A stretch of DNA of 64,000 nucleotides from assembly GCF_023698535.1 (NCBI RefSeq), contig NZ_JALJCL010000011.1, positions 62,001 through 126,000 of the forward strand. The letters are read 5' to 3'. The notes under the pieces are model-generated. The model worked only from the letters and a program-made list of their open reading frames with translations. It was not told the DNA's origin and searched no databases. Origin of the DNA: Halorientalis regularis (GTDB taxonomy: Archaea > Halobacteriota > Halobacteria > Halobacteriales > Haloarculaceae). Of the stretch, positions 20,917-64,000 are shown one piece after another (within the stretch, counting starts at the first letter, position 1; each line of letters begins with the position of its first letter). Both the position numbers and the translations under genes were made by a program.

Positions 20917-22122
20917 ATGTTTTTCGCGTTGAAACTCATACGGTTTGTCTTTCGGCTCTTCCTGAAACTGGTACTGTTCCCGTTCAAACTGATCAAGCGA
21001 CTCCTGGGCACCGAGCAGTCGACCGAGCAGTGGGCAGAAACGGGAGAGGCGGAGACTGAGGCCACGGAGGGTACCCCGGAGACGCTGGCGGATTCTCCAG
21101 AGGGGCTCAGCGTGGCAGCGACGCAGGCGAAAAACAACATCCAGCGGTTCCGCAAGGGGCTGATTGCAGTCGGTGTGGTGCAACTGCTGGTCGGTCTCTT
21201 CGCGGTTTTTAATATCGCACAGTCACCGATCGGCGGGTTCCGACCCGCACTGGTCGACGGACTCCTTCTCACAGTCGTCGTCTTCAGCCTCGCACCGATT
21301 GGCGTTGGATTCGGACTGACGAGGTGGACGACGGCCTCGTGGTATCTCGGAATGGCGTTTTGCGGCCTTCAAATCGTCCTCTCGGTGTTCGCGCTGCCTG
21401 GTGGTCTCATCACGATCGGTATCTACGGCATCCTCGGCTATCTCGGATATACGGGACGACCAGCACTGATGACACTATCGAACGCTGGCGGCTCCCCGAC
21501 GGGAGATGAATCCGGGCAGCAGGAGTCAATCGAGCGACAGTCTCACGACACAGGGGGGGCGGTCGACCACGAGGACATCCCTCCGTCAGATTCTGAACCG
21601 GCAGCTGACGCCCCAACTGACGGTACGGCATCGTCACAGACGGAACGAACGGACACTCCTCCCGCGGACACCACCTCGACGGAACCGGCTCCCGAACCGT
21701 CCGCCAACGACGAAACCGAAGATCCGGGCGACGGTGGTCAGGGTGACCACCAATCCGACCCCTCGGAAACGGACGCAGGGGAGACGGACAGTGCGGAACC
21801 CCGGGCGGATGCTGGAGCGGTCGAGGGCGATCCGGTCGAGGAGTACCGGGAGGAGCTACACGCCGACTCGGCATCGATCCGGCGAGCAGCGGTCGAGGAT
21901 CTCGTCGCCGCAACCAGTTCGGATTCCGTTCCCACGCAGGCCGCCATCGACGCACTCTCGGAGCGACTGGAAGACGAGGATCCGGAGGTCCGGGCTGTGG
22001 CCTGTCGCGGACTGGGCCAGCTCGGCGCGGAACAGGTCAAACCGAAACTCGAGGACCTTCGCATCGACACCGACCCGGACGTGAGTCGTGCAGCGAGTCA
22101 GGCACTTCGGAACATAGAATGA
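20917..22122 (+). CDS. Membrane protein with C-terminal HEAT repeats
   Basis: 401 aa. The N-terminus (FALKLIRFVFRLFLKLVLFP) is an amphipathic or membrane-embedded basic helix. Residues about 80-180 contain four hydrophobic helices. A long Ser/Thr/Asp/Glu/Pro-rich linker spans about 190-305. Residues about 310-401 form HEAT-like repeats: a DSASIRRAAVEDLVAA helix pair, then DPEVRAVACRGLGQLG and DPDVSRAASQALRNI. The repeat domain should lie in the cytoplasm as a protein-binding platform. First gene of an operon with three further genes. Function unknown. Confidence 0.75.
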   Translation: MFFALKLIRFVFRLFLKLVLFPFKLIKRLLGTEQSTEQWAETGEAETEATEGTPETLADSPEGLSVAATQAKNNIQRFRKGLIAVGVVQLLVGLFAVFNIAQSPIGGFRPALVDGLLLTVVVFSLAPIGVGFGLTRWTTASWYLGMAFCGLQIVLSVFALPGGLITIGIYGILGYLGYTGRPALMTLSNAGGSPTGDESGQQESIERQSHDTGGAVDHEDIPPSDSEPAADAPTDGTASSQTERTDTPPADTTSTEPAPEPSANDETEDPGDGGQGDHQSDPSETDAGETDSAEPRADAGAVEGDPVEEYREELHADSASIRRAAVEDLVAATSSDSVPTQAAIDALSERLEDEDPEVRAVACRGLGQLGAEQVKPKLEDLRIDTDPDVSRAASQALRNIE

Positions 22123-22216
22123 GTACGATGTATCACTCAGTTACCGATCGTATCGAACGTCGAATCGATCTCGGAGACCAGTCGCGGGTCCCTACACCCG
22201 ACGAGGGGTGGTCCGG

Positions 22217-23890
22217 ATGCGTGTGACCGATGTCGTTCGCGAGGCCGACCGTCCAGTGGCCGAAGACAGAGCTCGCGCACTCGCGATCAACGAAGCACTG
22301 CGGGAACCGCTCTCCGAGTTCCTCGACGAGAAACAAACCAAGTTGCGATACGCGGTCGGAATCGGTGCTGCCACCGCGGTGGTGGGCATCGTTGCGCTCG
22401 GGATAGTCGATGGGGCTCTGGTCGGCGGCGGGCTGTTCCTCCTCGGTCTGGCCATCGCTGGCGGCGGCTATGCCTACCTCAACGATCAGTCTCCGGACGT
22501 GACGGTGCGCTCGGTTCAGAAAGGATACTGGACAGCACACAGTCTTCCCGTGCAGGATGGCTCGATACTCTACGACGCCACCCAGTCTATCGAAACGACG
22601 AGTTTCGATCTGGAGCAACTGACCGATCACGACAAGATCGCAGCGGCCAACGATACACTCGCAGACGTCAGTGAGTACCCGGTCGTGATGGCACAGGACG
22701 AAAACGTCGAGGACACGCTGACGGAGACGCTCGACGAGATTACGACGGAGATCGAAACTGCAGAAGAGTTCACCGTCGAAGCGCCGATCATTCCCGCGAC
22801 CGGCTCCGAACGAGCGGCTATCGAGACGTTGCTCGAGATGGCCGACCCGGACGACACCGTCGATGCGGACTTCGACATTCCAGTTGACCAGGCCCGGACC
22901 GACATTCAGGAACTCGACGAACTCGAGCAAATGGCGGCCTCGGACGGTGCCGAGAGTGAGTTAGAGGAACTGTCCGACACGAGTCGGACGCTCGTCGATG
23001 ACCTATCCGGAATGCAGGAGACTGCCGTCGACCTGTTGAACGACCACATCGGGACCGCTGCAGACGCGTTCGGCCTGGTGAGTTACAACTTCTACTGCCC
23101 GGACTGTCAGACCGACGATATCGATTCGGTGGTCGAACTCACGGACCCACAGGCTGGGAGCTGGTACTGTGAAACGTGCCGAACGACTCACGATACGTCG
23201 GCCGTCATTCCCAGACACCGCCTCAAAGACGATCTCGTGAACCCCGTCTGGGACCAGCTGTGGATCGAGAAAGACGACCAACGTCGCGAGGTGTACGAGA
23301 ACATCGAGGACCAGAAAGCCGACTTACAGGAGCGGGAATTCGAACAGCGCAGCGAGGAGATCCGGTCGACGACCGACCGGATCCGTGACCTCCGATCGCG
23401 GATCCGAGACCTCAAGACGGAAGCCAAAGCCGCGGAGGGGAAAGTCTCGGAGATCGGGGATCTGATGGTCAAGTACGAGCGGATTCACGACGAGCGAAAG
23501 CAGGCCTTCGAGCAAGAAGTCGAGTCGTCGTTCGCCGAAATCGACGAGGAGACGGAAGAGATTCTCGAACAGACCCGGAACGAAGAGCAAGAACGAATCG
23601 AGGAGGCTGAACAGGCGGCCAAGGAGAAAGCCGAGATGATGCGCGAGGAGAAACGGCGGCGGGAGATCGAGAAATTCGTCGCCGAGCAACAGCTGGAGGA
23701 CCAACGAACGCGTGCGACACTCGCACAACAAGCGGACCGTCACGACGAGGAAATGGAGATGCAACGGCGCCAACACCGGGAGGAGTGGATGCTAGAGACC
23801 CGTGGCCGAACGTCGTTTTCCGGTCGGATCGACAAGGCACGGATGAAAAAAGACCGGCTCCTCGGAGCGTCTGCCGGGGGTGATTCCTGA
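22217..23890 (+). CDS. Membrane protein with zinc ribbon and long coiled coil
   Basis: 557 aa from ATG at 22217; a GTG nine bases upstream is also possible. Two adjacent transmembrane helices lie near residues 43-88. A mixed, acidic globular region follows, then a zinc ribbon CPDC...CETC around residues 292-318. From about residue 345 to 540 there is an almost unbroken charged coiled coil (repeats like RDLRSRIRDLK and EEAEQAAKEKAEMMREE), and a basic tail ends the protein. No named family is recognised. Architecture suggests a membrane-tethered rod. Its stop overlaps the start of the next gene (TGATGG). Confidence 0.75.
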   Translation: MRVTDVVREADRPVAEDRARALAINEALREPLSEFLDEKQTKLRYAVGIGAATAVVGIVALGIVDGALVGGGLFLLGLAIAGGGYAYLNDQSPDVTVRSVQKGYWTAHSLPVQDGSILYDATQSIETTSFDLEQLTDHDKIAAANDTLADVSEYPVVMAQDENVEDTLTETLDEITTEIETAEEFTVEAPIIPATGSERAAIETLLEMADPDDTVDADFDIPVDQARTDIQELDELEQMAASDGAESELEELSDTSRTLVDDLSGMQETAVDLLNDHIGTAADAFGLVSYNFYCPDCQTDDIDSVVELTDPQAGSWYCETCRTTHDTSAVIPRHRLKDDLVNPVWDQLWIEKDDQRREVYENIEDQKADLQEREFEQRSEEIRSTTDRIRDLRSRIRDLKTEAKAAEGKVSEIGDLMVKYERIHDERKQAFEQEVESSFAEIDEETEEILEQTRNEEQERIEEAEQAAKEKAEMMREEKRRREIEKFVAEQQLEDQRTRATLAQQADRHDEEMEMQRRQHREEWMLETRGRTSFSGRIDKARMKKDRLLGASAGGDS

Positions 23891-24837
23891 TGGCGAACGA
23901 CGACCTCCTCAAGCCACTCAGAGCGATCAACGAGACGATATCGAATCTCCGTCAGGACGTCCAGAAGCTCACGGGTGAAGCCAAGAAGATCAAAGAAGCG
24001 ATCACGAACGGGGCCGAAACCATCCGGGACGCTATACAGGAGAACATCCAGGCACAGGCCGAACTCAAGCTGATGGAGTACGTCATGGAGGTAAAGTCGG
24101 TCAAGCCACAGATCGACGCCGAGTACGAACAGATCAAAACGGAGCGGAGCGAACTCGAGGGCCGACTCGAGAGCATCGGCGAGCGATACCAGCGAAAGCA
24201 AGCCGAACTAGACGAGAAAGCCCAGGACCGTATCCGGGACCTCGGCTCCCATATCTTCGAGATCGAAGAAGAGCAGTTCGAAGACGGGATCGAAGACCCC
24301 TTCACCGAGCAAGTGACCACGGCGTGGCAGTCGCTCCAGGCCCACAACGCCGACGTCGGTGACGAACGGGCAACAGCGGTCAAGGAGACGACGAGTGAGG
24401 CAATTCAGCGGATCTACGACTTCATCGACCGGCAGGAGCAGCTCCTCGAATCGATCCGGGATCACCGATACGATCCCGCCGAGCACACACTCCCGACGGA
24501 CGAACCGGGCCAGTTACAGGTCCCGTACTACGTCGTCGAGTACGAGAAAGACGGTGTGGTCGACAGGCAGGTGATCGTCCCATCGTCGGTGTCCGAGGGC
24601 GGGACCGAGTGGTGTAGCGCGACCCTCGAGGCCAGCGACGGCGTGGCGACGCTGCTTGGCAACGTCGACCCAGTTACCGATCCGGCGACGACCGACACGC
24701 TATCCGAACAGACGCTGCGGGACACGCTCTCCGAGTACAGTTCGTCCTCACCACTGGGGTTGTCTTACGCCGACGCTGTCGCGGATGCCGTTCCCGAGAG
24801 TGGACGCGTCGACGTGCCACAGGAGGTCGCGGAATAA
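23890..24837 (+). CDS. Coiled-coil protein of the bactofilin-like operon
   Basis: 315 aa, cytosolic by prediction (no signal, no hydrophobic helix). Residues 1-190 are heptad-rich helices (LRQDVQKLTGEAKKIKEAIT; ELEGRLESIGERYQRKQAEL), likely a long coiled coil. From about 215 a compact beta-rich domain begins with QVPYYVVEYEKDGVVDRQVI and looks like a small barrel. No named family is recognised. It overlaps both neighbours by one to four bases, so its expression is translationally coupled. It could pair with the coiled coil of the preceding membrane protein (inference). Confidence 0.75.
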   Translation: MANDDLLKPLRAINETISNLRQDVQKLTGEAKKIKEAITNGAETIRDAIQENIQAQAELKLMEYVMEVKSVKPQIDAEYEQIKTERSELEGRLESIGERYQRKQAELDEKAQDRIRDLGSHIFEIEEEQFEDGIEDPFTEQVTTAWQSLQAHNADVGDERATAVKETTSEAIQRIYDFIDRQEQLLESIRDHRYDPAEHTLPTDEPGQLQVPYYVVEYEKDGVVDRQVIVPSSVSEGGTEWCSATLEASDGVATLLGNVDPVTDPATTDTLSEQTLRDTLSEYSSSSPLGLSYADAVADAVPESGRVDVPQEVAE

Positions 24838-25646
24838 TGGCGGAGATCGAACAGAGCCGTGCGGTCGTCGAGGCCGAGGAAACGTTCGATGGACGGATCA
24901 TTCCCGACGAACAGGCGGAACTCGGACGGCCCGTTCGGTTACGGGATGGGGCCGTGGTTCAGGGAAGCGTCTACGGCGGCACGGTCGAAGCCGACGACGG
25001 CGTCACCGTCGAAGGATCGATCATGGCGGCCGCGGGTATCGAACTCGACGGCGCACACGTCGATGGCGAGGTCGGGTCACCCGACAAGGTCCTCGCGACC
25101 GACACGCACATCGACGGGACCGTAACCGGCCAGCGTGTTCGTCTCACCGACTGTGTCGTCCGCGGGAACGTCGTCGGTGCCAACGTCATCCTGGAAGACT
25201 GTATCGTCCTCGGCATCGCCACTGCCGAACGTGAACTCGCCATCGAGGAGTCTCTCTGCTACACGTTCCGTAGCCAGGGGGAGACGACGCTCGAAAACAC
25301 CACGCTGGTCCTGCCACAGGCGATCGCCGAGGGCCCCCTGGAACTGACGACGCCCGTCGCAGTGGCCGGACTCGGGCAGATCGAAGTCGACGACGCGGGC
25401 GGCCCTGCGGAACGACTCCCGGAGATGGGCGCGGACGATCTCTACGAACAGGACGGGACGACCTATCTCACGCTCGCACCTCGCATCCTGAATCTCGAAA
25501 AGATCACCGAACGGTTGGAAGAACTGGAAGACGCAGTCATGGCCGCCGTCGACGACACGAGCGGCGACGACGGAACAGAGATGAGCGTCGACGACGTTCT
25601 CTCGCTGTTCGACATCGATCTTCGAGACGGGACGACACCGGACTAA
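24837..25646 (+). CDS. Bactofilin-like polymer-forming beta-helix protein
   Basis: 269 aa. Residues about 15-135 consist of short repeating strands with G-x-V/I-x-G turns (VQGSVYGGTVEADDGVTVEG; HIDGTVTGQRVRL), the pattern of a left-handed or bactofilin-type beta helix. Residues 200-269 are acidic and partly helical (LEKITERLEELEDAVMA). Bactofilin-domain proteins self-assemble into filaments, and haloarchaeal relatives (halofilins) act in cell shape. Here the gene closes an operon whose other members are coiled-coil and membrane proteins, and it stops 71 bp from the 3' end of mutS. Confidence 0.75.
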   Translation: MAEIEQSRAVVEAEETFDGRIIPDEQAELGRPVRLRDGAVVQGSVYGGTVEADDGVTVEGSIMAAAGIELDGAHVDGEVGSPDKVLATDTHIDGTVTGQRVRLTDCVVRGNVVGANVILEDCIVLGIATAERELAIEESLCYTFRSQGETTLENTTLVLPQAIAEGPLELTTPVAVAGLGQIEVDDAGGPAERLPEMGADDLYEQDGTTYLTLAPRILNLEKITERLEELEDAVMAAVDDTSGDDGTEMSVDDVLSLFDIDLRDGTTPD

Positions 25647-35388: not shown

Positions 35389-35670
35389 ATGGGCCGCGAG
35401 GTCATCGAAGACGTCGAGGACCGCGACGGTAACCTGGTCGTCCGGCGGAAAATTCACCGCACCGACGACCCGAAGTTCCCGAGTGGGTATCGGTACGCGC
35501 TCCGCTACGGGCACACCGACGGCCGTGGCACCATCCCCCGATACGACAACGAGAACCGGACGCCGGGTCGTCACGAGCGACACACGCCCGACGGTATCGA
35601 GGAGATCGAGTTCCCGGGAATGCTGGCACTCCGGAACCGTTTCACGACCGAAATCGAGGACCTACCATGA
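35389..35670 (+). CDS. TumE-family (DUF6516) toxin
   Basis: 93 aa. The sequence pattern (GNLVVRRKIHRTDD, YRYALRYGHTDG, IPRYDNENRTPGRHERHTPDG) is that of DUF6516, now called TumE toxins. The conserved R-Y-D-N and H-x-R-H positions are probably the active or RNA-binding site. Its stop overlaps the next gene by ATGA, which gives translational coupling to its partner antitoxin. A TATA-like sequence (ccatag/taccatag) precedes it near 35375. A second TumE, much diverged, lies at 61765-62073. Confidence 0.75.
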   Translation: MGREVIEDVEDRDGNLVVRRKIHRTDDPKFPSGYRYALRYGHTDGRGTIPRYDNENRTPGRHERHTPDGIEEIEFPGMLALRNRFTTEIEDLP

Positions 35671-36092
35671 CCACGGACACGCTGAAAATCACGTTCGGAC
35701 AGGCCGACGAACACGCCGATGCGGCCCGGGACCGCCTGCGAAAAGCGGAAGCCGGCGAGCGCGGCGGGGAGATCGAACAGGATGCCCGGTTCATCCTGAA
35801 CTTCGAGGACTTCGGCGAGGTCGAACGCCTCATGCGAACGTCGAATCTGACGCTGCTGGAAGCCATCGTGAACGACCGGCCCGATAGTATTCGTCAGACT
35901 GCGGCGGCTGTCGACCGCGACTACAAGGAAGTCCATCGGAACCTGAAAGAACTGGAGTCACTGGGAGTGGTCGAGTTCGAGGACGACGGTGCGAGCAAAC
36001 GACCGGTCCTCAGAGGTGGTGCAGAGACCGTCGACATCTCGTTCAGTATCGGACGCGGTACTGTCGGTGGTCACTCCGGTGCCTCCGCCTGA
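35667..36092 (+). CDS. HVO_A0114-type putative antitoxin (TumA-like), winged helix
   Basis: 141 aa. The region RLMRTSNLTLLEAIVNDRPDSIRQTAAAVDRDYKEVHRNLKELESLG is a winged helix-turn-helix of the MarR/ArsR type (positions about 65-115), with a wing at EDDGASKRP. This is the layout of HVO_A0114 DNA-binding proteins that accompany TumE toxins. The N-terminal ITFGQADEHADAARDRLRKA helix probably binds the toxin. It starts inside the toxin stop codon. Likely autoregulates the pair. Confidence 0.78.
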   Translation: MTTDTLKITFGQADEHADAARDRLRKAEAGERGGEIEQDARFILNFEDFGEVERLMRTSNLTLLEAIVNDRPDSIRQTAAAVDRDYKEVHRNLKELESLGVVEFEDDGASKRPVLRGGAETVDISFSIGRGTVGGHSGASA

Positions 36093-55786: not shown

Positions 55787-56721
55787 TCACTCTCCGATTC
55801 CAGTCTCCTTCTTCACCAGTGTCAGCGTATTGTCGGCTGTTACGATCGGCGAGTGGTCGTACTCACCGGTCAACTGTACCTGCACGAGTAAATCAACTGC
55901 CCGCCAGATCGAGTACAGGAGACAGGCGAACGCGAAGTAGAAGAACCGCAGGCCGAAGTGCTTCGACGTTGTGGCGGCCATGAACCGCTCGATCGATTTG
56001 TAGCCGCTCTCGATCTCCCATTCCGTACTCGGCAAGGAGCCCGCTATTCCGATTCGTCATGAACACCGAATACTGTCGATGATCGGTGTGTTCGGAGTTC
56101 TCCTTCCGCCGGTAGATCAATGTCGTCGAGTGCCACTCTTGTCGCCCAAGTGCAATTTTCGATCAGTCTCGTAGCGGTCTTCCCCCGCTTGAGAAGTCGT
56201 TTCGCCTGCGCTTTTTCGCTGGTCTGCATCCGCTTGGGCACGACGTAGGAGAGGCCGCGCTGGCTGAGCATCTCCAGGATGTGCTGGCTGTCGAACTCTC
56301 TATCCATCAGTACGTTATCGACGTGACCAGCCGCCTCTGCCGAGTCCAAGAGGTCCGCGGCGATCTCCTTGCGCGCATCGCCTTTCCGTACCGGCCGTGC
56401 GTCTAAGACGATTGGGACAGCGTTCCCGACTAACTGGACCGTCGCCCACTGGTAAGCGTACTCGTCGGTCTTCTCCTTCGTGCCGATGATCTCGTCTCCG
56501 TGACCCGCACGGTCGCCAGTGAACGGGTCAGATTCGGTAATATCGATGGCAACGATGCCGGCTCGGAAGAATTCCTCTGGCTCTGCGACTCGATCCAAGA
56601 GGCGACTCACGGCGTGGCGGTACATCTCCCGAATCTGTGTGACCGAGAGATCACGGACGTGCTCGCGATGGGCGTGGCCGAGTGGTGTTCGCTCTCGCCT
56701 GGATTCGTGAGGGGGTGTCAT
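55787..56721 (-). pseudogene. Degenerate DDE transposase (truncated, frameshifted)
   Basis: The minus strand from 56721 reads AIDITESDPF, a DDE first Asp, then NVLMDREFDSQHILEML with the second Asp. The frame breaks near 56045. The rest continues in another frame (55787-56035) with EWEIESGYKSIERFM, the Glu of the catalytic triad. The intact relative at 62435-64000 shows the same three motifs plus about 200 extra N-terminal residues, so this copy lacks its start and has a frameshift. Possible 6-bp inverted ends TAGTGT/ACACTA lie at 55569 and 56734. Confidence 0.75.
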
Positions 56722-56765
56722 TGAACGGTTACCACACTAAAGAGCTAGATGAACGCCGAGGTGGG

Positions 56766-57665
56766 ATGGTTCCGGTCGTGAGGTATTTTGGCCTGCACCG
56801 GATAGTAGCGAGAGTGTTCGGAGGAGACATTACGCCAGCAGAGGAAGTACTCGGTCCCGGAGACGACGCTGACGTGGCGATTGTCGGGGGCATTCACGGC
56901 GATGAACCGAGTGGCGTTCGGGCAGTCCGGGAGGTTCTCGACTCCTCCACGAACTTACAGCGACCGATACAACTCGTCGTAGCGAATCCGCCTGCCGTCG
57001 CGAGCCATCGCCGATATATCGATGCCGACATGAACCGAGTGTTTCCAGGCGATCCGGCCAGCGAGGACCGCGAACGCCGACTCGCTGCTGCGCTCCTCAA
57101 AACAATCAGCGACTGTGGCGTCGTCCTCTCTCTCCATTCCACCCACTCCTACGATGATCCAATCGCGCTCGTTTCACGGTCACACCCCGAGGTACAGGCA
57201 CTAGCCGCTCGCCTCCCAGTGTCTCACGTTGTTGACCAGACGCCCTGTTTCGAGGGAGCATTCGCAACGTCAGCACCCGTTCTCACTATCGAAGCAGGCC
57301 GAACGCGTACCGAGGAGGCGACGGAAAACGCGCGGCAAATCGTTGAGGCCTTCCTCCAGTTGGTTGATGCACTTCCTGGGGAACCTGTAGAGACAGATTC
57401 GACGTATTACACGATGACTGAGGCAGTCTCGACACAGCCGGACGCCAACTACGATCTCCTCGTCGACAACTTCGAAGTGGTCGAACCAGGGACAACCGTC
57501 GCACGGAGCGATAGGGGCGAATACGTAGCCGATAGCTCCTTCGTTCCGATTCTGATGTCCGAAACAGGGTATGACGACATCCTGGGATACAAAGGCGCTG
57601 TCGCTGGCGAGACGCTTTCGTCAGCTCGCAACGCTTGGGGAGTCTCCCCGACTCCTAGGAACTAA
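56766..57665 (+). CDS. Succinylglutamate desuccinylase/aspartoacylase-family protein
   Basis: 299 aa from ATG at 56766 (MVPVVRYFGLHRIV); the upstream frame overlaps the decayed transposase. The zinc carboxypeptidase-like core has GGIHGDEPSGV near residue 40 (His and Glu ligands), ADMNRVFPGDP near residue 85, and LSLHSTHSY with the third ligand His. A C-terminal beta domain starts around residue 215. Known members remove acyl groups from amino acids. Substrate unknown. Codon use is less GC-biased than in neighbours to the left, in keeping with an accessory region. Confidence 0.82.
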   Translation: MVPVVRYFGLHRIVARVFGGDITPAEEVLGPGDDADVAIVGGIHGDEPSGVRAVREVLDSSTNLQRPIQLVVANPPAVASHRRYIDADMNRVFPGDPASEDRERRLAAALLKTISDCGVVLSLHSTHSYDDPIALVSRSHPEVQALAARLPVSHVVDQTPCFEGAFATSAPVLTIEAGRTRTEEATENARQIVEAFLQLVDALPGEPVETDSTYYTMTEAVSTQPDANYDLLVDNFEVVEPGTTVARSDRGEYVADSSFVPILMSETGYDDILGYKGAVAGETLSSARNAWGVSPTPRN

Positions 57666-58007
57666 TTCACCCGTGTCGTTCTGTAGAGAGTGAGTAGCCA
57701 CCAGACTCTCGGCAGAAGGATGGCAACTGTTTTGCGACACTCTCTCGTGAACTCTTCTCTGACACCCTCTCATCCCGTACCAAGCGACGCCTCGAAGGAG
57801 TTCCTCACCCATCACAGAGTATTTAGAGTGATTTTCGCACACGGCTCCAATGAAGTAGAAACCAGCAAGTGGGCCAGAAAAGCCGAGAGGAAAGACGAGC
57901 GGCTGTAACGACCCCCCGAGAACGTATGCCAGCACCGCACCGACAATCGCTACGATAGACAGTATTGCCCCGTAGCGATGGATAGATTGGAAGGTTTCGA
58001 CATCCAT
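57621..58007 (-). CDS. Small membrane protein, C-terminus overlapping the aspartoacylase gene
   Basis: 128 aa from ATG at 58007. The first 75 residues look genuine: two hydrophobic helices (AILSIVAIVGAVLAYVLGG and PLVFPLGFSGPLAGFYFIGA). The rest is basic and overlaps the last 45 bp of the convergent gene. No family recognised. Real gene likely but its 3' end may be altered, since the tail (HSLQNDTGELVPRS) lacks the acidic character of haloarchaeal proteins. Confidence 0.4.
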   Translation of the reverse strand: MDVETFQSIHRYGAILSIVAIVGAVLAYVLGGSLQPLVFPLGFSGPLAGFYFIGAVCENHSKYSVMGEELLRGVAWYGMRGCQRRVHERVSQNSCHPSAESLVATHSLQNDTGELVPRSRGDSPSVAS

Positions 58008-58053
58008 AGGATACTCTCGTTCTTTGACGGATTAACTATTTTGTGGACTCCCC

Positions 58054-58091
58054 ATTGACGTCCTCCCCGCGCTGAAGCGCGAGGACTCTTC
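58054..58091 (+). repeat. Second IS200/IS605-like hairpin end
   Basis: ATTGACGTCCTCCCC followed by the stem CGCGC-tgaa-GCGCG and then GAGGACTCTTCCG has the same plan as the element at 8968-9020 (TTGACRTCCTCCC, CTGAAG loop, CTTCCG). No transposase of that family is nearby. It sits between two genes and interrupts nothing visible. Confidence 0.5.
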
Positions 58092-58240
58092 CGTGGGTAA
58101 GGGAAACGCCCCAAGTTATCCCAAGGATTGGTGGCGGCGATTCTGCGGGGGCCGAACAGAAGTGCAGACGAGACACTGATCACTACGAGATACGTGGTGA
58201 CAGGAACGAGCGATCCCCTTCGAACGCCGGCAATTCTGCG

Positions 58241-59011
58241 TCAGCACGTAACATCCTCAGGTGACTCCAATTCAGGCTGCTCAACATGCCGGTTCCAAAA
58301 GGACGCGTCGAGATACACATCCGTAATGCCAGTCGCTCCTGACAGCCGAGCGATCCTCTCAGTGGTAGCCCAGAGAACTCGCTGGACCGACTGGGGAACC
58401 ATCGTCATCACCGTCTCATCATAAAGATCCGCCGCGATCACGAGCGACTCTACCGGACCCGGACCAGGAAAGTTGCCGCCCTCATCGCGACCACGTTTGT
58501 GGGCCAGTCCCCAGGCGGTGTAGAGCCCTTTTACCATCCGAATCGACGGGAGTTCGGCTCTGAATGCAACTATTTCGTTAGTGTCGTTACGGAAGGTATG
58601 CTCGTGTCCTGGTTCGACAGTCAGCGATTCTCCAGGGTCGAGTTGGATTGGCTCTCCATCGCGAACGACAGTGAGCTGTCCCTCAAGCGTCTTGAACGTC
58701 TCTGTCTTCGGATGGTAGTGAGCTGGCGGCTCAGGAGAGTCCGGCGACACCCACTGGACAAGAACTGGACGATCGGTGTTCCCCGCGTCTGGTCGCTCCA
58801 TCAGTGTCGCCCATGTCCGACTTACTGGATCGGAAACGAGTGGACGGGGTGACCGTCGCAGGAGGACACTTGCAGGAGTTTCAGGATTCAATTCGAGTGA
58901 GGGCTCGTCAATCGGGCTTCCGTTTACGAGTGGGCGGCCAGTCCGAATGGTCACCTCTTTCTTATCACCGGTACTCTGTCCCTGTTCATTGGACTGCGTC
59001 TCGGTCTCCAT
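58241..59011 (-). CDS. Cupin-domain protein
   Basis: 256 aa from ATG at 59011 (METETQSNEQGQS). A single cupin barrel spans about 95-165 with metal-binding motif 1 (PPAHYHPKTETFKTLEGQL) and motif 2 (PGHEHTFRNDT); the His/Glu ligands are present in both. The C-terminal helices (VLWATTERIARL) may sit at a membrane or dimer face. No signal peptide. Family members bind small molecules or act as dioxygenases; substrate unknown. Divergent from the HTH-10 gene with only 88 bp between starts. Confidence 0.8.
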   Translation of the reverse strand: METETQSNEQGQSTGDKKEVTIRTGRPLVNGSPIDEPSLELNPETPASVLLRRSPRPLVSDPVSRTWATLMERPDAGNTDRPVLVQWVSPDSPEPPAHYHPKTETFKTLEGQLTVVRDGEPIQLDPGESLTVEPGHEHTFRNDTNEIVAFRAELPSIRMVKGLYTAWGLAHKRGRDEGGNFPGPGPVESLVIAADLYDETVMTMVPQSVQRVLWATTERIARLSGATGITDVYLDASFWNRHVEQPELESPEDVTC

Positions 59012-59099
59012 CTCCGTTACGTATAACGGACCGACGTAGATGGAAATTCTGTGAGGTATGCATGTGGGTTTTATGACTGATTCAGTCGATGGATGGGTT

Positions 59100-59774
59100 A
59101 TGAAACACCTCCACGTCACTGTCCATATCGACGACGATCACGCACCGGAATTCTTCGAATTATTGGCCAATTCGTCGGCCATTAATGAGACCCGTTTGGT
59201 CGACTGGAGCATGACAGCCGACGATCAGTCGACGCTCTTGTATACGGTCGATGGTGATCCAACGACGTTCGCCGAACGGGCCGCTGACACCGCGGGTATC
59301 GATTCGGTGGAACTGTCCGATACCACACCGGGACAAACATATGTGCTGGTCGTCATGCGACCGCTCGAAACCCCTCTGTTCGCTGCTATCCAGCGAGCAA
59401 GTACAGAGGCGGGACTCATCGTCCGCAAACCAATCGTATATCGCAATGGAACGATGTCTGCCCGCGTCATTGGAGACGCTTCAGTACTCCAGCGCGCTCT
59501 CGACGATGCCCCCAACGGCGTCGAGGTACAGATCGACAGGATCGGCCGACTTCAGAGTCATTCCAACGATCCAGTAGGTACGCTAAGCGAAAGACAGCGT
59601 GAAGCAGTCGGGGCTGCACTCGAACTCGGCTACTATAACCAGCCTCGAGAAGCAACTCATGAAGACGTCGCCGCCAAACTTGACTGTGCACCGCCAACAG
59701 CCAGCGACCATCTACAGAAGGCAGAAGCAAAAATCATCCGCGCAATGATGGACGAGTTTGGTGGTACTGCATGA
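59100..59774 (+). CDS. HTH-10 (bacterio-opsin activator-like) transcription regulator
   Basis: 224 aa from ATG at 59100 (MKHLHVTVHIDDD). The C-terminal helix-turn-helix reads LSERQREAVGAALELGYYNQPRE with THEDVAAKLDCAPPTASDHL, the haloarchaeal HTH-10 domain of the Bat family. The N-terminal 150 residues are a ligand or ACT-like domain without PAS or GAF, unlike Bat itself. It may regulate the divergent cupin gene, and possibly others. DNA target unknown; no link to bop 11 kb away can be shown. Confidence 0.85.
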   Translation: MKHLHVTVHIDDDHAPEFFELLANSSAINETRLVDWSMTADDQSTLLYTVDGDPTTFAERAADTAGIDSVELSDTTPGQTYVLVVMRPLETPLFAAIQRASTEAGLIVRKPIVYRNGTMSARVIGDASVLQRALDDAPNGVEVQIDRIGRLQSHSNDPVGTLSERQREAVGAALELGYYNQPREATHEDVAAKLDCAPPTASDHLQKAEAKIIRAMMDEFGGTA

Positions 59775-59891
59775 AATTCCCACTATATCACGGGTGCTTG
59801 GGCTATTGAAGCGTGTCATTGGGCGTCCTCTCAAGGGTGTAGGTTTCAGTGTTGATCTTGGATATATGGGACCACCCGTTAAAAATCACAC

Positions 59892-60113
59892 ATGCATATT
59901 CTATGGCATGCCGGATCCGCCATAGCTGTAATCCTTGGTCTTGCCTACGTTATACTTCCAAAGAGAATTCACACCTTTGGCTTTGAGCTCCTTCGGCGTT
60001 CTTCGTCCGACCAATCTGAAGAGTCCAACACCCCCGTCTGGCTTTACCGGAGGGTGAGGGTGTCATACAACGGTTCACATAGCTGTTCTTCGCTTCCCCG
60101 ATTCGCTCAGTAG
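59892..60113 (+). CDS. Small membrane protein
   Basis: 73 aa. One hydrophobic helix (residues 4-22, AGSAIAVILGLAYVILP) with a following KRIHTFGFELLRR segment looks like a genuine small haloarchaeal membrane protein. After about residue 45 the sequence (NTPVWLYRRVRVSYNGSH) loses the acidic bias and may be read-through of a damaged end. No family recognised. TATA-like tttgttaaa sequences are not clear; the upstream region is AT-rich. Confidence 0.4.
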   Translation: MHILWHAGSAIAVILGLAYVILPKRIHTFGFELLRRSSSDQSEESNTPVWLYRRVRVSYNGSHSCSSLPRFAQ

Positions 60114-60221
60114 AGCGCGCGTGTCTTGCACAACTGGTGTGGTCGTAGTCGGTCGAGACGGCTGAACAGCTACCGACATTTTGTCAGAAAACATTTTCAC
60201 TTGGGGGTCAGATGGCGAGAT

Positions 60222-60404
60222 CTATCGGCCAGAATACTCGTCCAATCGTCGGATTGCCTCGTCGAAAACCACCCAGAGTAGAATAAAACCGCTAACGAAG
60301 ACTAGCGGAAAGAGCGCTGGAATCAGCACTGCGAACAGGGAGAGTTGGATACCAACACCGATTAACAGGAGGTCTTTTTGTCGGTCTTCCTGGGAGGGCA
60401 TCAT
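60222..60404 (-). CDS. Two-helix small membrane protein
   Basis: 60 aa. After MMPSQEDRQKDL two hydrophobic helices follow (LLIGVGIQLSLFAVLIPALF and PLVFVSGFILLWVVF), ending in a charged EAIRRLDEYSGR. Composition fits a real protein. No family recognised. An AT-rich, TATA-like tatatatcgg/gttcaatatat element lies at 60417-60433, about 15-30 bp before the ATG on the same strand, a good promoter position. Confidence 0.5.
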   Translation of the reverse strand: MMPSQEDRQKDLLLIGVGIQLSLFAVLIPALFPLVFVSGFILLWVVFDEAIRRLDEYSGR

Positions 60405-60480
60405 GCACTTTTTGATAGGTTCAATATATATCGGTACCGATTACCAACAACTCAAACGATTACTCCAGAGAGTCTACCGG

Positions 60481-60849
60481 TCACGTTTCATCGAACGACC
60501 ACTTTCCCTTAACGCTGTGTATTGAGAGGCCAGCGTTGGTGGTTTTGGAGGCGCTCACGCGGTCGTGGACTTGAACGCGGTTGAAATCTTCTCGACCTGC
60601 ACTCGCATTGTAACAGCCTGTCGTCGTCTCGTCCTCACCCCAAGATGGACTACAAACTCCGACGACATAGCGGACCTCTTCGTAGACTTGTTGGAGTTCA
60701 TTATGTAAGGATTCAGAAACTACGGGGGTAGAAGGGGATTCAAACCGGTCCCGCCAATCATCGTGTAGCCAGTTGATTTGAGGCGAGCCGGAGCCGGGTG
60801 AATTGCTGAGAGTGACGGTTATAGAGCGTGGACTCACCAGAGTGATCAA
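60481..60849 (-). CDS. Hypothetical protein, weak support
   Basis: 122 aa. It contains LHDDWRDRFESPSTPVVSES and LQQVYEEVRYVVGVCSP, with no signal peptide and no transmembrane helix. The end SASKTTNAGLSIHSVKGKW looks unlike a coding region. No family is recognised. It could be a remnant of a larger gene. The neighbourhood is gene-poor and AT-rich. Confidence 0.25.
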   Translation of the reverse strand: MITLVSPRSITVTLSNSPGSGSPQINWLHDDWRDRFESPSTPVVSESLHNELQQVYEEVRYVVGVCSPSWGEDETTTGCYNASAGREDFNRVQVHDRVSASKTTNAGLSIHSVKGKWSFDET

Positions 60850-60930
60850 ATCGCACGTACCGAAGCAGTATGTGAAATTCTCCTATGAGTCTTCCCCAGG
60901 GTTTAGTGAATAGCTCAGAGACAGAGTAAC

Positions 60931-61026
60931 ATGGAACCCAAGGATTACGCGATATTGTTCGCACTTCAGGTAGTCGCAACCGTTGTTGGAATTTTCGTAT
61001 ACATCGGTATCGGTGGTTCGTTCTAA
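60931..61026 (+). CDS. 31-aa single-helix membrane peptide
   Basis: ATG at 60931, TAA at 61024. After MEPKDYAI the sequence is one transmembrane helix, LFALQVVATVVGIFVYIGIG, ending GSF. Clear Met-acid start, helix and compact stop make it a credible tiny membrane protein, of a kind often missed. No family recognised. It sits alone in an AT-rich region with no neighbour in the same operon. Confidence 0.5.
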   Translation: MEPKDYAILFALQVVATVVGIFVYIGIGGSF

Positions 61027-61316
61027 TCACTCCTCTAAGACAGGGTACAAAATCGAGATGCAACATACGCATCTACACTGAGCACTCGAGTTTTGCACAC
61101 ACGCGGCTGGATGTGACGTTGGCCGATCACTGAGCCTTCCTCGTACCCCTGCACGGGTTGGGCCGTCGTCGTAATCGTGGCGGCAGCCGAGTCCGGCGAC
61201 TCTCCCGAGCGGCGGAAATTGCACACAGCGTTTCCGGTGGACGTGTGCAGAACGAGGCTCAGGAAAATATCGACGCGCAACCGGTCTCAGTCGCACCGAA
61301 ACCGGTCCAACGCGAT

Positions 61317-61784
61317 TCACGCCGATGCGGCCGACTCTGACCCTTCGCCACGAGGGAGGCCGAACTCAACTTCGATTCGGACCGTGTCGTAGGGAACGTA
61401 CGGCTTCTTCGCGCGCCCATCCTTCTCGAAGTGGATGATGTCGTACTCGGCCAGCAGGTGGAGATCGTCGTGGACATCGTGGACGTCGCGGTCGAGGTGG
61501 TCAGCCAGCGCGCGGATGCTCTCGGGTGGCTGTTCCATCACCTCCTCAAGCAGTTCCATCCGCCGGTCAGTGAGCAGCTGGCGGAGCCGCGCCCGGTCTT
61601 CGAAGTTGACGACGTGGGGTACCTCCTCGCCGTCCTCCCACTGTTCGGCGCGCTCGATGGCCGCCTGCTGTGCCTGCTCCGCTGGCAGCGACGTGATGCG
61701 GAGGGTCGACGGGTAGTCGACCTCGTCCGGGCCGGGCGTGAATTCGTCGTGCGTGGGTTCGGTGTCAGTCGGTTCGTTGCTCAT
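61317..61784 (-). CDS. HVO_A0114-type putative antitoxin (TumA-like), winged helix
   Basis: 155 aa. The winged helix reads RRMELLEEVMEQPPESIRAL with LADHLDRDVHDVHDDLHLLAE, followed by the wing FEKDGRAKKPYVPYD, about residues 75-135. An acidic N-terminal arm (TDTEPTHDEFTPGPDEV) precedes it. The toxin gene lies just before it on the same strand and the two overlap by 20 bp. It is paralogous to the protein at 35667 in plan but with little close similarity. Confidence 0.78.
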   Translation of the reverse strand: MSNEPTDTEPTHDEFTPGPDEVDYPSTLRITSLPAEQAQQAAIERAEQWEDGEEVPHVVNFEDRARLRQLLTDRRMELLEEVMEQPPESIRALADHLDRDVHDVHDDLHLLAEYDIIHFEKDGRAKKPYVPYDTVRIEVEFGLPRGEGSESAASA

Positions 61785-62073
61785 AGATTTCGGTCACCTC
61801 GGTTTGGAAGTCAGCGATCAGGTCGGAGAGGCCTGTGAACTCCAGTTTCGTGATGTCGCCCTCGGGTGTGTGTCGATGGTGCCGGCCGACGTCCAGGTGG
61901 TAGGGCGCGTTGTCGTATCGCAGGAGCGTGTCGCTGTCAGCGTCCATGTACTGGAAGCTGTACTTCAGCCCCTGCGGGAACTCCTCGCTCACCGGGACTC
62001 GCCACGCGACCATCTCGTACCGGCTCCCGTCCGGTTTCTCGCTTCCGTCCCGGTACACAACTGACGCAGGCAC
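61765..62073 (-). CDS. TumE-family (DUF6516) toxin
   Basis: 102 aa. The pattern RYEMVAWRVPVSEEFPQGLKYSF, then LLRYDNAPYHLDVGRHHRHTPEG, is the DUF6516/TumE signature, with R-Y-D-N and H-x-R-H also seen in the first copy at 35389. It overlaps the antitoxin gene. A TATA-like tttatctc lies at 62104-62111 on the minus strand, about 35 bp before the ATG. Together the two genes form a toxin-antitoxin operon next to mobile DNA. Confidence 0.75.
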   Translation of the reverse strand: MPASVVYRDGSEKPDGSRYEMVAWRVPVSEEFPQGLKYSFQYMDADSDTLLRYDNAPYHLDVGRHHRHTPEGDITKLEFTGLSDLIADFQTEVTEIYEQRTD

Positions 62074-62434
62074 CGTCTCCTATGTTGTATTTCAACCCCA
62101 ACAGAGATAAACCTTACCCGGCGAAGATGCCTGCAGCATTCATCTATTTGTGTATATGTTGTTTGGTGAAAATGGTGTTAAGAACCATTACCACCCAACG
62201 AATTGATTCGGACCTGCCCAACTTCCAGACTTTGAGTAGATGATGGGCGCTACAACCAAGACACGGGATTACGGTGCTATTTCATACAGGATATCATCTG
62301 GAAACTACATAGTATCTAAATTGGAAGAAGACTCAGACGAGAATTCCCGGAATTGACGGATTAAACCGTCAAAAAGTCAGATTCGAAGAGTGCTGCCGCT
62401 CACAAACGACGAAAACCGAGAGGAGGCTTCGTGC
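62074..62434. other. AT-rich gap between TumE operon and transposase
   Basis: 361 bp without a credible gene. It contains the promoter of the TumE/TumA operon near 62090-62115. The right part (62345-62434) includes an inverted pair TGACGG/CCGTCA around ATTAAA (62354-62371). This is probably the end region of the insertion sequence whose transposase stops at 62435. Confidence 0.4.
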
Positions 62435-64000
62435 TTAAGCGTACCGGCGCAGGAAGTCACCCAATGCACGAACGAATGTATTTGCCGAGATGACCGGCGG
62501 TGACCGGATCGGTTCGCCGATCCCGACTTTGATGAGATAATCGGTGAGCCGCCAGAGGTTGTACAGCAGTGACGCCAACACAAAATTACACAGACGTACG
62601 CGGTAGTCAGTTGACGATGTCCGCGGGAGGAACTCTTCAATAGACTTGTACTGGTTCTCGATATCCCGTCGGCGGTTGTATTCGTTGACGACCGAGTCGA
62701 TTTCCTCGGGAGCGACGTGGTCACGGTTCGTGACGTATGCGCCGTAGTTCCCATCAGCACCATCAGTATCAACCGGCGCATAGATGTATTCCGCGGTGTG
62801 ACGATGGCCGCCGTCACTCTCGAACGGCACATCGTGAATGACACCAGCGTCCACACCCTCGGTCGATTTGATGTCCTCGATGGCGTCGAGGTCATCTTCA
62901 TACTTCGGGACAGGCGCAAGATACGTCAGGTCACGTTCATCGACTGCTATATAGACATCGTGGCTGTGGAAGCCACGGTCGAACATCACTTGGTCAATGT
63001 CGACATACTGTTGTGCCTGGTCCAGAAGGCGTGCGACTAGTTCGCCCTTCGCGTACGAGGCAGCGCCTTCATCCTCCCAGACAGAGTTTTCTTTGACTGG
63101 CTCAACAGCGAGGATGATCGGAGCGACATCGCCCACAAGCGTGATAGTGGCGTACTTGTAGCCGCGCTTCACCTCGCCATCGTGCTTGTAGCCGCTTACC
63201 ATCGGTGGGAACGTACTCTTCGCAATCCCCTCGTCCTTGTTCTCCCACGGCGTGGGCCAGAATCGCTCGTAAGTAATGTCGATAGCGGCGGTGACGTGGC
63301 GATCATCGAACGGATCGTCGCCACGAATCGTTCCCAAGATGTGGTCAGTCGCAGATTCGAAGGAGTCCATCAGCGTATCGCGGATTTCCGTGATCGCCGG
63401 CATTCGGTCATCCCCAGCGAAGTCATCGATGGTGAGCTGTGCCTCTTCGGTTCCAGGTGTGGCGAATTGCTTGAGCACTCGAAGAATCGTATCGCCGGAG
63501 GCAGTGGTATCATCGTCGGTGAGCCAGCCGTATTCGCCTTCGCCGTGGGCGCTCTCGCCCATCGTGCAGATCCGAGCAACCATCTCCAAAATCGCTTTGT
63601 CGTCGTAGGTGCGGTTGTCTGCTCGACCGCTGTCGAAGACAGGGAAGGCATACCTGCGCGCGAGTTCGATCGTCTTCGTGGCCTTCTGGCGTTTCCACTC
63701 GCGGTCTTGCTCGGTTGCTTGTTCGTCGGTGTCTCTTTTGTCTTCGTCGGGACTTGTCGGTAGAAGTGCCTCCGAGATTACATCGTTCTCATGTGCGACG
63801 TGGGCGATAGCAATTGCCGATTCGTCGATAACACGCTGTGTCTCGTCATCAAGGGCCCGCCACGTCTCCGAGAGAGTTTGCTGTGTCGGCGGCGTCGTGA
63901 ACCCAAACTGTTTGCACAATGCCGGACGGGTATGGAGTTGATCAGCCAATTCATTGTGTGAGAATTCTCGAATCTCTGCGTACAGGAAACAGCGCACCAT
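62435..64000 (-). CDS. DDE transposase of an insertion sequence (5' end at window edge)
   Basis: 521 codons from an ATG exactly at the right edge to a stop at 62435; the gene may extend further. DDE motifs: AAIDITYERF near residue 240, VMFDRGFHSHDVYIAV near residue 335, and DIENQYKSIEEFLPR near residue 460. The insertion domain is acidic. The layout is of IS4/ISH3-like haloarchaeal transposases; I am unsure of the exact family. The decayed copy at 55787-56721 belongs to the same group. Terminal repeats could not be fixed as the element leaves the window. Confidence 0.85.
   Translation of the reverse strand: MVRCFLYAEIREFSHNELADQLHTRPALCKQFGFTTPPTQQTLSETWRALDDETQRVIDESAIAIAHVAHENDVISEALLPTSPDEDKRDTDEQATEQDREWKRQKATKTIELARRYAFPVFDSGRADNRTYDDKAILEMVARICTMGESAHGEGEYGWLTDDDTTASGDTILRVLKQFATPGTEEAQLTIDDFAGDDRMPAITEIRDTLMDSFESATDHILGTIRGDDPFDDRHVTAAIDITYERFWPTPWENKDEGIAKSTFPPMVSGYKHDGEVKRGYKYATITLVGDVAPIILAVEPVKENSVWEDEGAASYAKGELVARLLDQAQQYVDIDQVMFDRGFHSHDVYIAVDERDLTYLAPVPKYEDDLDAIEDIKSTEGVDAGVIHDVPFESDGGHRHTAEYIYAPVDTDGADGNYGAYVTNRDHVAPEEIDSVVNEYNRRRDIENQYKSIEEFLPRTSSTDYRVRLCNFVLASLLYNLWRLTDYLIKVGIGEPIRSPPVISANTFVRALGDFLRRYA

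Follow-up and report, generated by a model that had tools for sequence, protein, structure and literature searches.

A conserved haloarchaeal gene cassette predicted to encode a membrane-tethered bactofilin-type scaffold

The window analyzed here is a stretch of 64,000 nucleotides from Halorientalis regularis, in which an earlier note had pointed to four closely spaced genes as an undescribed operon encoding membrane-anchored, coiled-coil and beta-helix proteins. All four open reading frames are present on the forward strand, and we refer to them as A, B, C and D (Table 1). The last three were said to overlap by 1-4 bases, which is correct in substance: the B/C junction (TGATGG) and the C/D junction (TAATGG) are overlaps of exactly one base each. 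Genes A and B do not overlap and are separated by a gap of about 95 bases. Translation of B most likely starts at the ATG at 22217 rather than at the GTG at 22208, because homologues begin with MRV. A further open reading frame of about 35 codons (window 22119-22228, plus strand) begins on the stop codon of A (ATGA) and extends into the start of B, and the congener G167 has one of similar size and dissimilar sequence at the same position between A and B. This short frame may be a translational-coupling relay, not a gene.

Table 1. Coordinates in the window of the four genes and of the features recognized in their products.
Feature	Position	Strand	Description and basis
Gene A	20917..22122	+	ORF, 401 aa; PF13646 (HEAT_2), E 1.1e-12; hydropathy
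HEAT repeats of A	21850..22110	+	PF13646, residues 312-398
Gene B	22217..23890	+	ORF, 557 residues; 560 from the alternative GTG start at 22208
Two predicted TM helices of B	22352..22468	+	Hydropathy, residues 46-84 (segments 46-64 and 66-84)
Zinc ribbon of B	23096..23179	+	C294, C297, C318, C321; alignment
Long coiled-coil region of B	23228..23812	+	Residues 338-532; model and alignment
Gene C	23890..24837	+	ORF, 315 aa; N-terminal coiled coil, C-terminal region without recognized fold
Gene D	24837..25646	+	ORF, 269 aa; beta-helix and conserved C-terminal motif
Beta-helix of D	24924..25364	+	About residues 30-176; AlphaFold model, VIA-align

Coding of the four genes was examined by comparison with G167, whose B, C and D proteins are 77-80% identical to those of the window. 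The dN/dS values of 0.13 for B, 0.10 for C and 0.18 for D, with 0.33 for A, show that the reading frames do not arise by chance. The G+C content of the cassette is 0.60-0.64, as compared to 0.66-0.71 in most of the surrounding DNA.

The membrane tethering proposed in the earlier note is predicted, with two putative transmembrane segments in B. The best-conserved part of this protein, residues 255-470, holds the zinc ribbon, whose cysteines are invariant across nine aligned homologues, and the motif WIEKDDxRR..YE.IEDQK. The structural model of B is poor overall (mean pLDDT 57, pTM 0.21) and shows N-terminal helices at residues 16-61 and 67-90 and a long helical region at residues 338-532, where the block pLDDT is mostly 65-86 with a dip at residues 402-417. 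B matched nothing at a meaningful score among the families of Pfam, NCBIfam, PHROGs and PADLOC. In the PDB, its profile matched a "circular tendon repeat" protein (E 4.8e-7) over 42 residues of helix, which we do not regard as convincing. Gene C likewise matched no Pfam or NCBIfam family at a meaningful score, its profile gave no significant match in the PDB, and PDB profile searches with B, C and D returned no convincing relative. C is a soluble coiled-coil protein and a partner in the cassette. The product of A combines a hydrophobic, basic N-terminal anchor with a transmembrane region (about residues 82-169), an acidic linker and a C-terminal pair of HEAT repeats.

Gene D, which the earlier note took to encode a bactofilin-like beta-helix, gave a confident model. 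An AlphaFold prediction built from seven sequences contains a beta-helix with block pLDDT values of 86-97 over residues 31-150, so that the failure to predict such a helix, named in the earlier note as grounds against its proposal, did not arise. Superposition with VIA-align on right-handed beta-helices gave rmsd values of about 3-4 (best Z 15.1, rmsd 3.0), while the left-handed helices of LpxD and LpxA fitted with rmsd values of about 11 (above 11 for LpxD). We are confident that the predicted fold is a right-handed parallel beta-helix. Downstream of it, the protein carries the conserved C-terminal motif PRILNLE..RLEELE. Foldseek searches with the D model yielded nothing below E 0.1 and generic beta-helices only, and no bactofilin entry was among the structural matches listed by Foldseek and VIA-align.

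The relation of D to bactofilins is apparent from sequence profiles. Against the Pfam bactofilin family PF04519, D of the window scores 20.0 bits (E 8.5e-4), below the gathering cut-off of 27.9, whereas its homologues in G168 (28.6 bits) and G137 (28.4 bits) lie above it; the remaining homologues score 20.7-25 bits. A profile of D matches canonical haloarchaeal bactofilins with E values from 8e-8 to 4e-4. Because the homologues straddle the Pfam cut-off and the D profile finds canonical bactofilins, we regard D as a divergent bactofilin-like family, whose place in PF04519 is borderline by sequence and agrees with the predicted fold. Bactofilins are polymers whose hallmark is nucleotide-independent assembly into filaments. 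One could also read D as a discrete, non-polymerizing beta-helix adaptor in a membrane signaling complex with B and C, as might be suggested by the score of the window protein below the bactofilin cut-off and by the generic beta-helices among its top structural matches. This reading appears improbable to us: relatives of D do exceed the cut-off, the D profile recognizes canonical haloarchaeal bactofilins, and the helix is right-handed, as in bactofilins.

To our knowledge, dedicated membrane partners of bactofilins are poorly known in archaea. D shares with bactofilins (PF04519) the right-handed beta-helix core and is related to them in sequence. With the halofilins HalA and HalB, haloarchaeal proteins with a role in curvature-dependent morphogenesis (review: PMC12186497), it has the haloarchaeal setting in common, a likeness drawn from their description. 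It differs from both in being divergent and in its fixed operon linkage to B and C; the window genome encodes a canonical bactofilin separately (G000 C1:134276).

The distribution of the genes was examined in a fixed order-level sample of 195 genomes, and further searches raised the number of genomes with B, C and D to 20. The same set of nine among the 195 genomes holds B, C and D at full length (with B interrupted in one), adjacent and in identical order. The order is retained in all 20 genomes, of which nineteen belong to haloarchaea and the other, G212, to a distant archaeon with AT-rich DNA. The 20 are the window genome, G167, G137, G494 (probably Halorientalis marina), G474, G488, G490 (probably Halorhabdus amylolytica), G493, G499, G109, G051, G006, G010, G023, G168 (probably Halonotius aquaticus), Halolamina pelagica, Halorubellus salinus, Natronorubrum thiooxidans, G588 and G212. 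The set is found in about 5% of the haloarchaeal species sampled; in broader samples, C was present in 14 of 292 genomes (class) and B in 5 of 295 (phylum). Pairwise distances correlate strongly among the three proteins (B-C 0.95, B-D 0.92, C-D 0.91). B, C and D thus evolve together and are co-inherited as a unit. The earlier note had considered that the genes might prove scattered and unlinked elsewhere, and we found B, C and D linked in every genome in which they occur. Its description of an undescribed operon also agrees with our survey of open-licence papers, in which the combination was not found.

The four-gene unit proposed in the earlier note did not hold up, since three genes are conserved and A is facultative and variable in position. 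A homologue of A adjoins B-C-D in 13 of the 20 loci, lying upstream in seven (window, G167, G006, H. salinus, G499, G488 and G588) and downstream in six (G109, G051, G168, H. amylolytica, H. marina and G474); in G168 a further, divergent homologue precedes the cassette. In G137, N. thiooxidans and H. pelagica a mostly hydrophobic protein of 79-81 residues is encoded directly 3' of D, in place of A, and neither gene is found at the other four loci (G010, G023, G212 and G493). Its absence from seven of the 20 loci rules out A as an obligate member. Because A is present in 13 loci, the small transmembrane protein in three and neither in four, we infer that the core is B-C-D and that the additional membrane protein is interchangeable.

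The flanks of the cassette are mostly unrelated between genomes, and apart from the ESCRT-like and kinase genes described below no clearly recurring flanking gene was found. The patchy spread and the largely unrelated flanks suggest that the cassette has moved horizontally among haloarchaea. As an empty-site comparison, the congener G098 was of no use, its upstream neighbor being not clearly syntenic. Degraded copies were also observed. In G051 (L031 8813-11568), B is broken into three pieces by a shift of frame and by an insert of about 1 kb containing a further open reading frame, which marks it as a decaying copy. In G043 (L033 7964-8230), D is reduced to its last 73 or so residues, with genes resembling TnpB and Orc1 just upstream, as named from their translations.

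A role in immunity, which the earlier note had kept in view, received no support. An antiviral or stress-triggered membrane defense system would share with defense genes the patchy distribution, the variable flanks, the decayed copies in G051 and G043 and the linkage to kinases. PADLOC matches were, however, partial and confined to coiled-coil or HEAT background, Pfam and NCBIfam searches brought up no effector domain, whether of a nuclease, an NADase or another kind, and the neighbors in the window include genes resembling those for acyl-CoA dehydrogenase, thiolase and MutS (from translations). We regard defense as very unlikely. A mobile or viral origin was rejected as well: relatives of B, C and D were absent from viral contigs, B was absent from phages, and neither B nor D was found on plasmids.

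The context of the cassette in some relatives gave a functional lead. In G109, Halorhabdus amylolytica and G212, B-C-D is clustered with genes for a CdvC/Vps4-like AAA ATPase, Ser/Thr kinases and a small protein that is ESCRT-III-like. The clusters of G109 and H. amylolytica hold, together with B-C-D-A, a 92-residue transmembrane protein, a 224-residue helical protein, the AAA ATPase, a transmembrane protein, a zinc-ribbon protein that matches SPFH weakly, more small proteins, a divergent pair of 180 and 718 residues, and a Ser/Thr kinase. Genes of these kinds are also found upstream of B-C-D in G212, with a kinase on the opposite strand; this genome has 31.6% G+C, belongs to a class of three genomes and encodes a D with only about 32% identity. 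Halonotius has a kinase adjoining the cassette, and its ESCRT-like genes are elsewhere in the genome. G051 has a B fragment beside an ESCRT-like/kinase locus, with B-C-D-A about 600 kb away.

The best NCBIfam match of the AAA ATPase is CdvC (E 9.6e-52), nearly full length (residues 9-375) and below the equivalog cut-off. In Pfam it has AAA and AAA_lid_3 domains and no MIT domain, and its N-terminal 80 residues match TPR-like designs. The small helical protein matched no Snf7 or PspA profile and nothing significant in the PDB, and we call it ESCRT-III-like by position and general character only. Clusters with the CdvC/Vps4-like ATPase, the ESCRT-III-like protein, the weak-SPFH zinc-ribbon protein and kinases are conserved in several haloarchaea (L108, L107, L099, L109 and L122-L125).

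We estimate a probability of about 0.55 that A-B-C-D encodes a membrane-tethered bactofilin-type scaffold that likely organizes membrane remodeling. In such a scaffold, D would stack end to end to form filaments or patches, C would join D to B at the latter's coiled coil, and B, plus A or the small transmembrane protein where present, would keep the polymer attached to the membrane on its cytoplasmic side. The scaffold may organize membrane remodeling or sorting and may be regulated by phosphorylation, because the cassette, in the genomes with a conserved context, lies beside the CdvC/Vps4-like ATPase, the ESCRT-III-like protein and Ser/Thr kinases.

An ESCRT-III-like gene was present in five of the 19 B-C-D genomes tested, two of which carry the ESCRT-like genes apart from the cassette, and absent from the other 14, including the window's own. 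Since most genomes with the cassette have no such gene, the ESCRT link is not the core function everywhere. Conversely, the gene is enriched in B-C-D genomes: in the 195-genome sample it occurs in three of nine, against one of the 186 others (Fisher p 2.7e-4, ignoring relatedness). This enrichment and the direct association of the two gene sets in three genomes, including a very distant one, could also mean that the cassette is primarily an accessory of the euryarchaeal ESCRT-III/Vps4 machinery, as a cargo platform or organizer of membrane domains, with stand-alone copies being relics or using another remodeling ATPase. We hold this to be a possible but rather unlikely explanation. It has to contend with the majority of B-C-D genomes that are devoid of an ESCRT-III-like gene, and no profile confirms that the small protein belongs to ESCRT-III. 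Moreover, G122 possesses an ESCRT-like locus and gave no B-C-D match in the order search. The strong purifying selection on the copies of the window and its congener means that these copies are not relics. Under the scaffold reading, the cassette of the window genome is probably a stand-alone envelope or shape scaffold acting without an ESCRT-III-like partner. A wider proposal, in which a B/C-anchored bactofilin-like polymer serves as a phosphorylation-controlled platform for ESCRT-III/Vps4 remodeling and has spread horizontally as a cassette, forming an undescribed archaeal cytoskeletal system, is put forward tentatively and seems rather unlikely.

Two known systems resemble this arrangement in part. 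The main-clade ESCRT loci of euryarchaea contain Vps4, ESCRT-III, arCOG09748, arCOG08177 and an STK; the parts described include a coiled-coil protein with a C-terminal winged helix, a Cas2-like protein and kinases (PMC10936438). The clusters of G109, H. amylolytica and G212 have the same kinds of parts, and two flanking genes can be likened to arCOG08177 and arCOG09748 by the published descriptions. Unlike the clusters described here, these loci have no bactofilin or beta-helix partner in the main text of that paper, and the window genome differs in having no ESCRT-III-like gene. In the ydj operon of Bacillus subtilis (PspA/band-7/zinc-ribbon), membrane-associated zinc-ribbon and coiled-coil proteins are encoded beside an ESCRT-III-family protein (PMC11237479). 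The proximity of membrane zinc-ribbon or coiled-coil proteins to an ESCRT-III-family protein is a shared trait, whereas no sequence relation of B, C or D to the ydj-type proteins was found and the main text of that study describes no bactofilin. There is a real chance that B-C-D with the ESCRT-like machinery is a new combined system. The clustering of the cassette with the CdvC/Vps4-like ATPase, the ESCRT-III-like protein and kinases in three genomes is a new lead, and the cassette offers a small gene set for testing membrane scaffolding and bactofilin-ESCRT cooperation in archaea.

Two other features of the window were observed. A two-gene pair at 35389-36092 (plus strand) is possibly toxin-antitoxin-like; related open reading frames precede the cassette of G006 by about 3-4 kb (L026 3520-4837). 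At the end of the window (56000-64000), the G+C content drops from about 0.68 to 0.54-0.58, which suggests a foreign segment.
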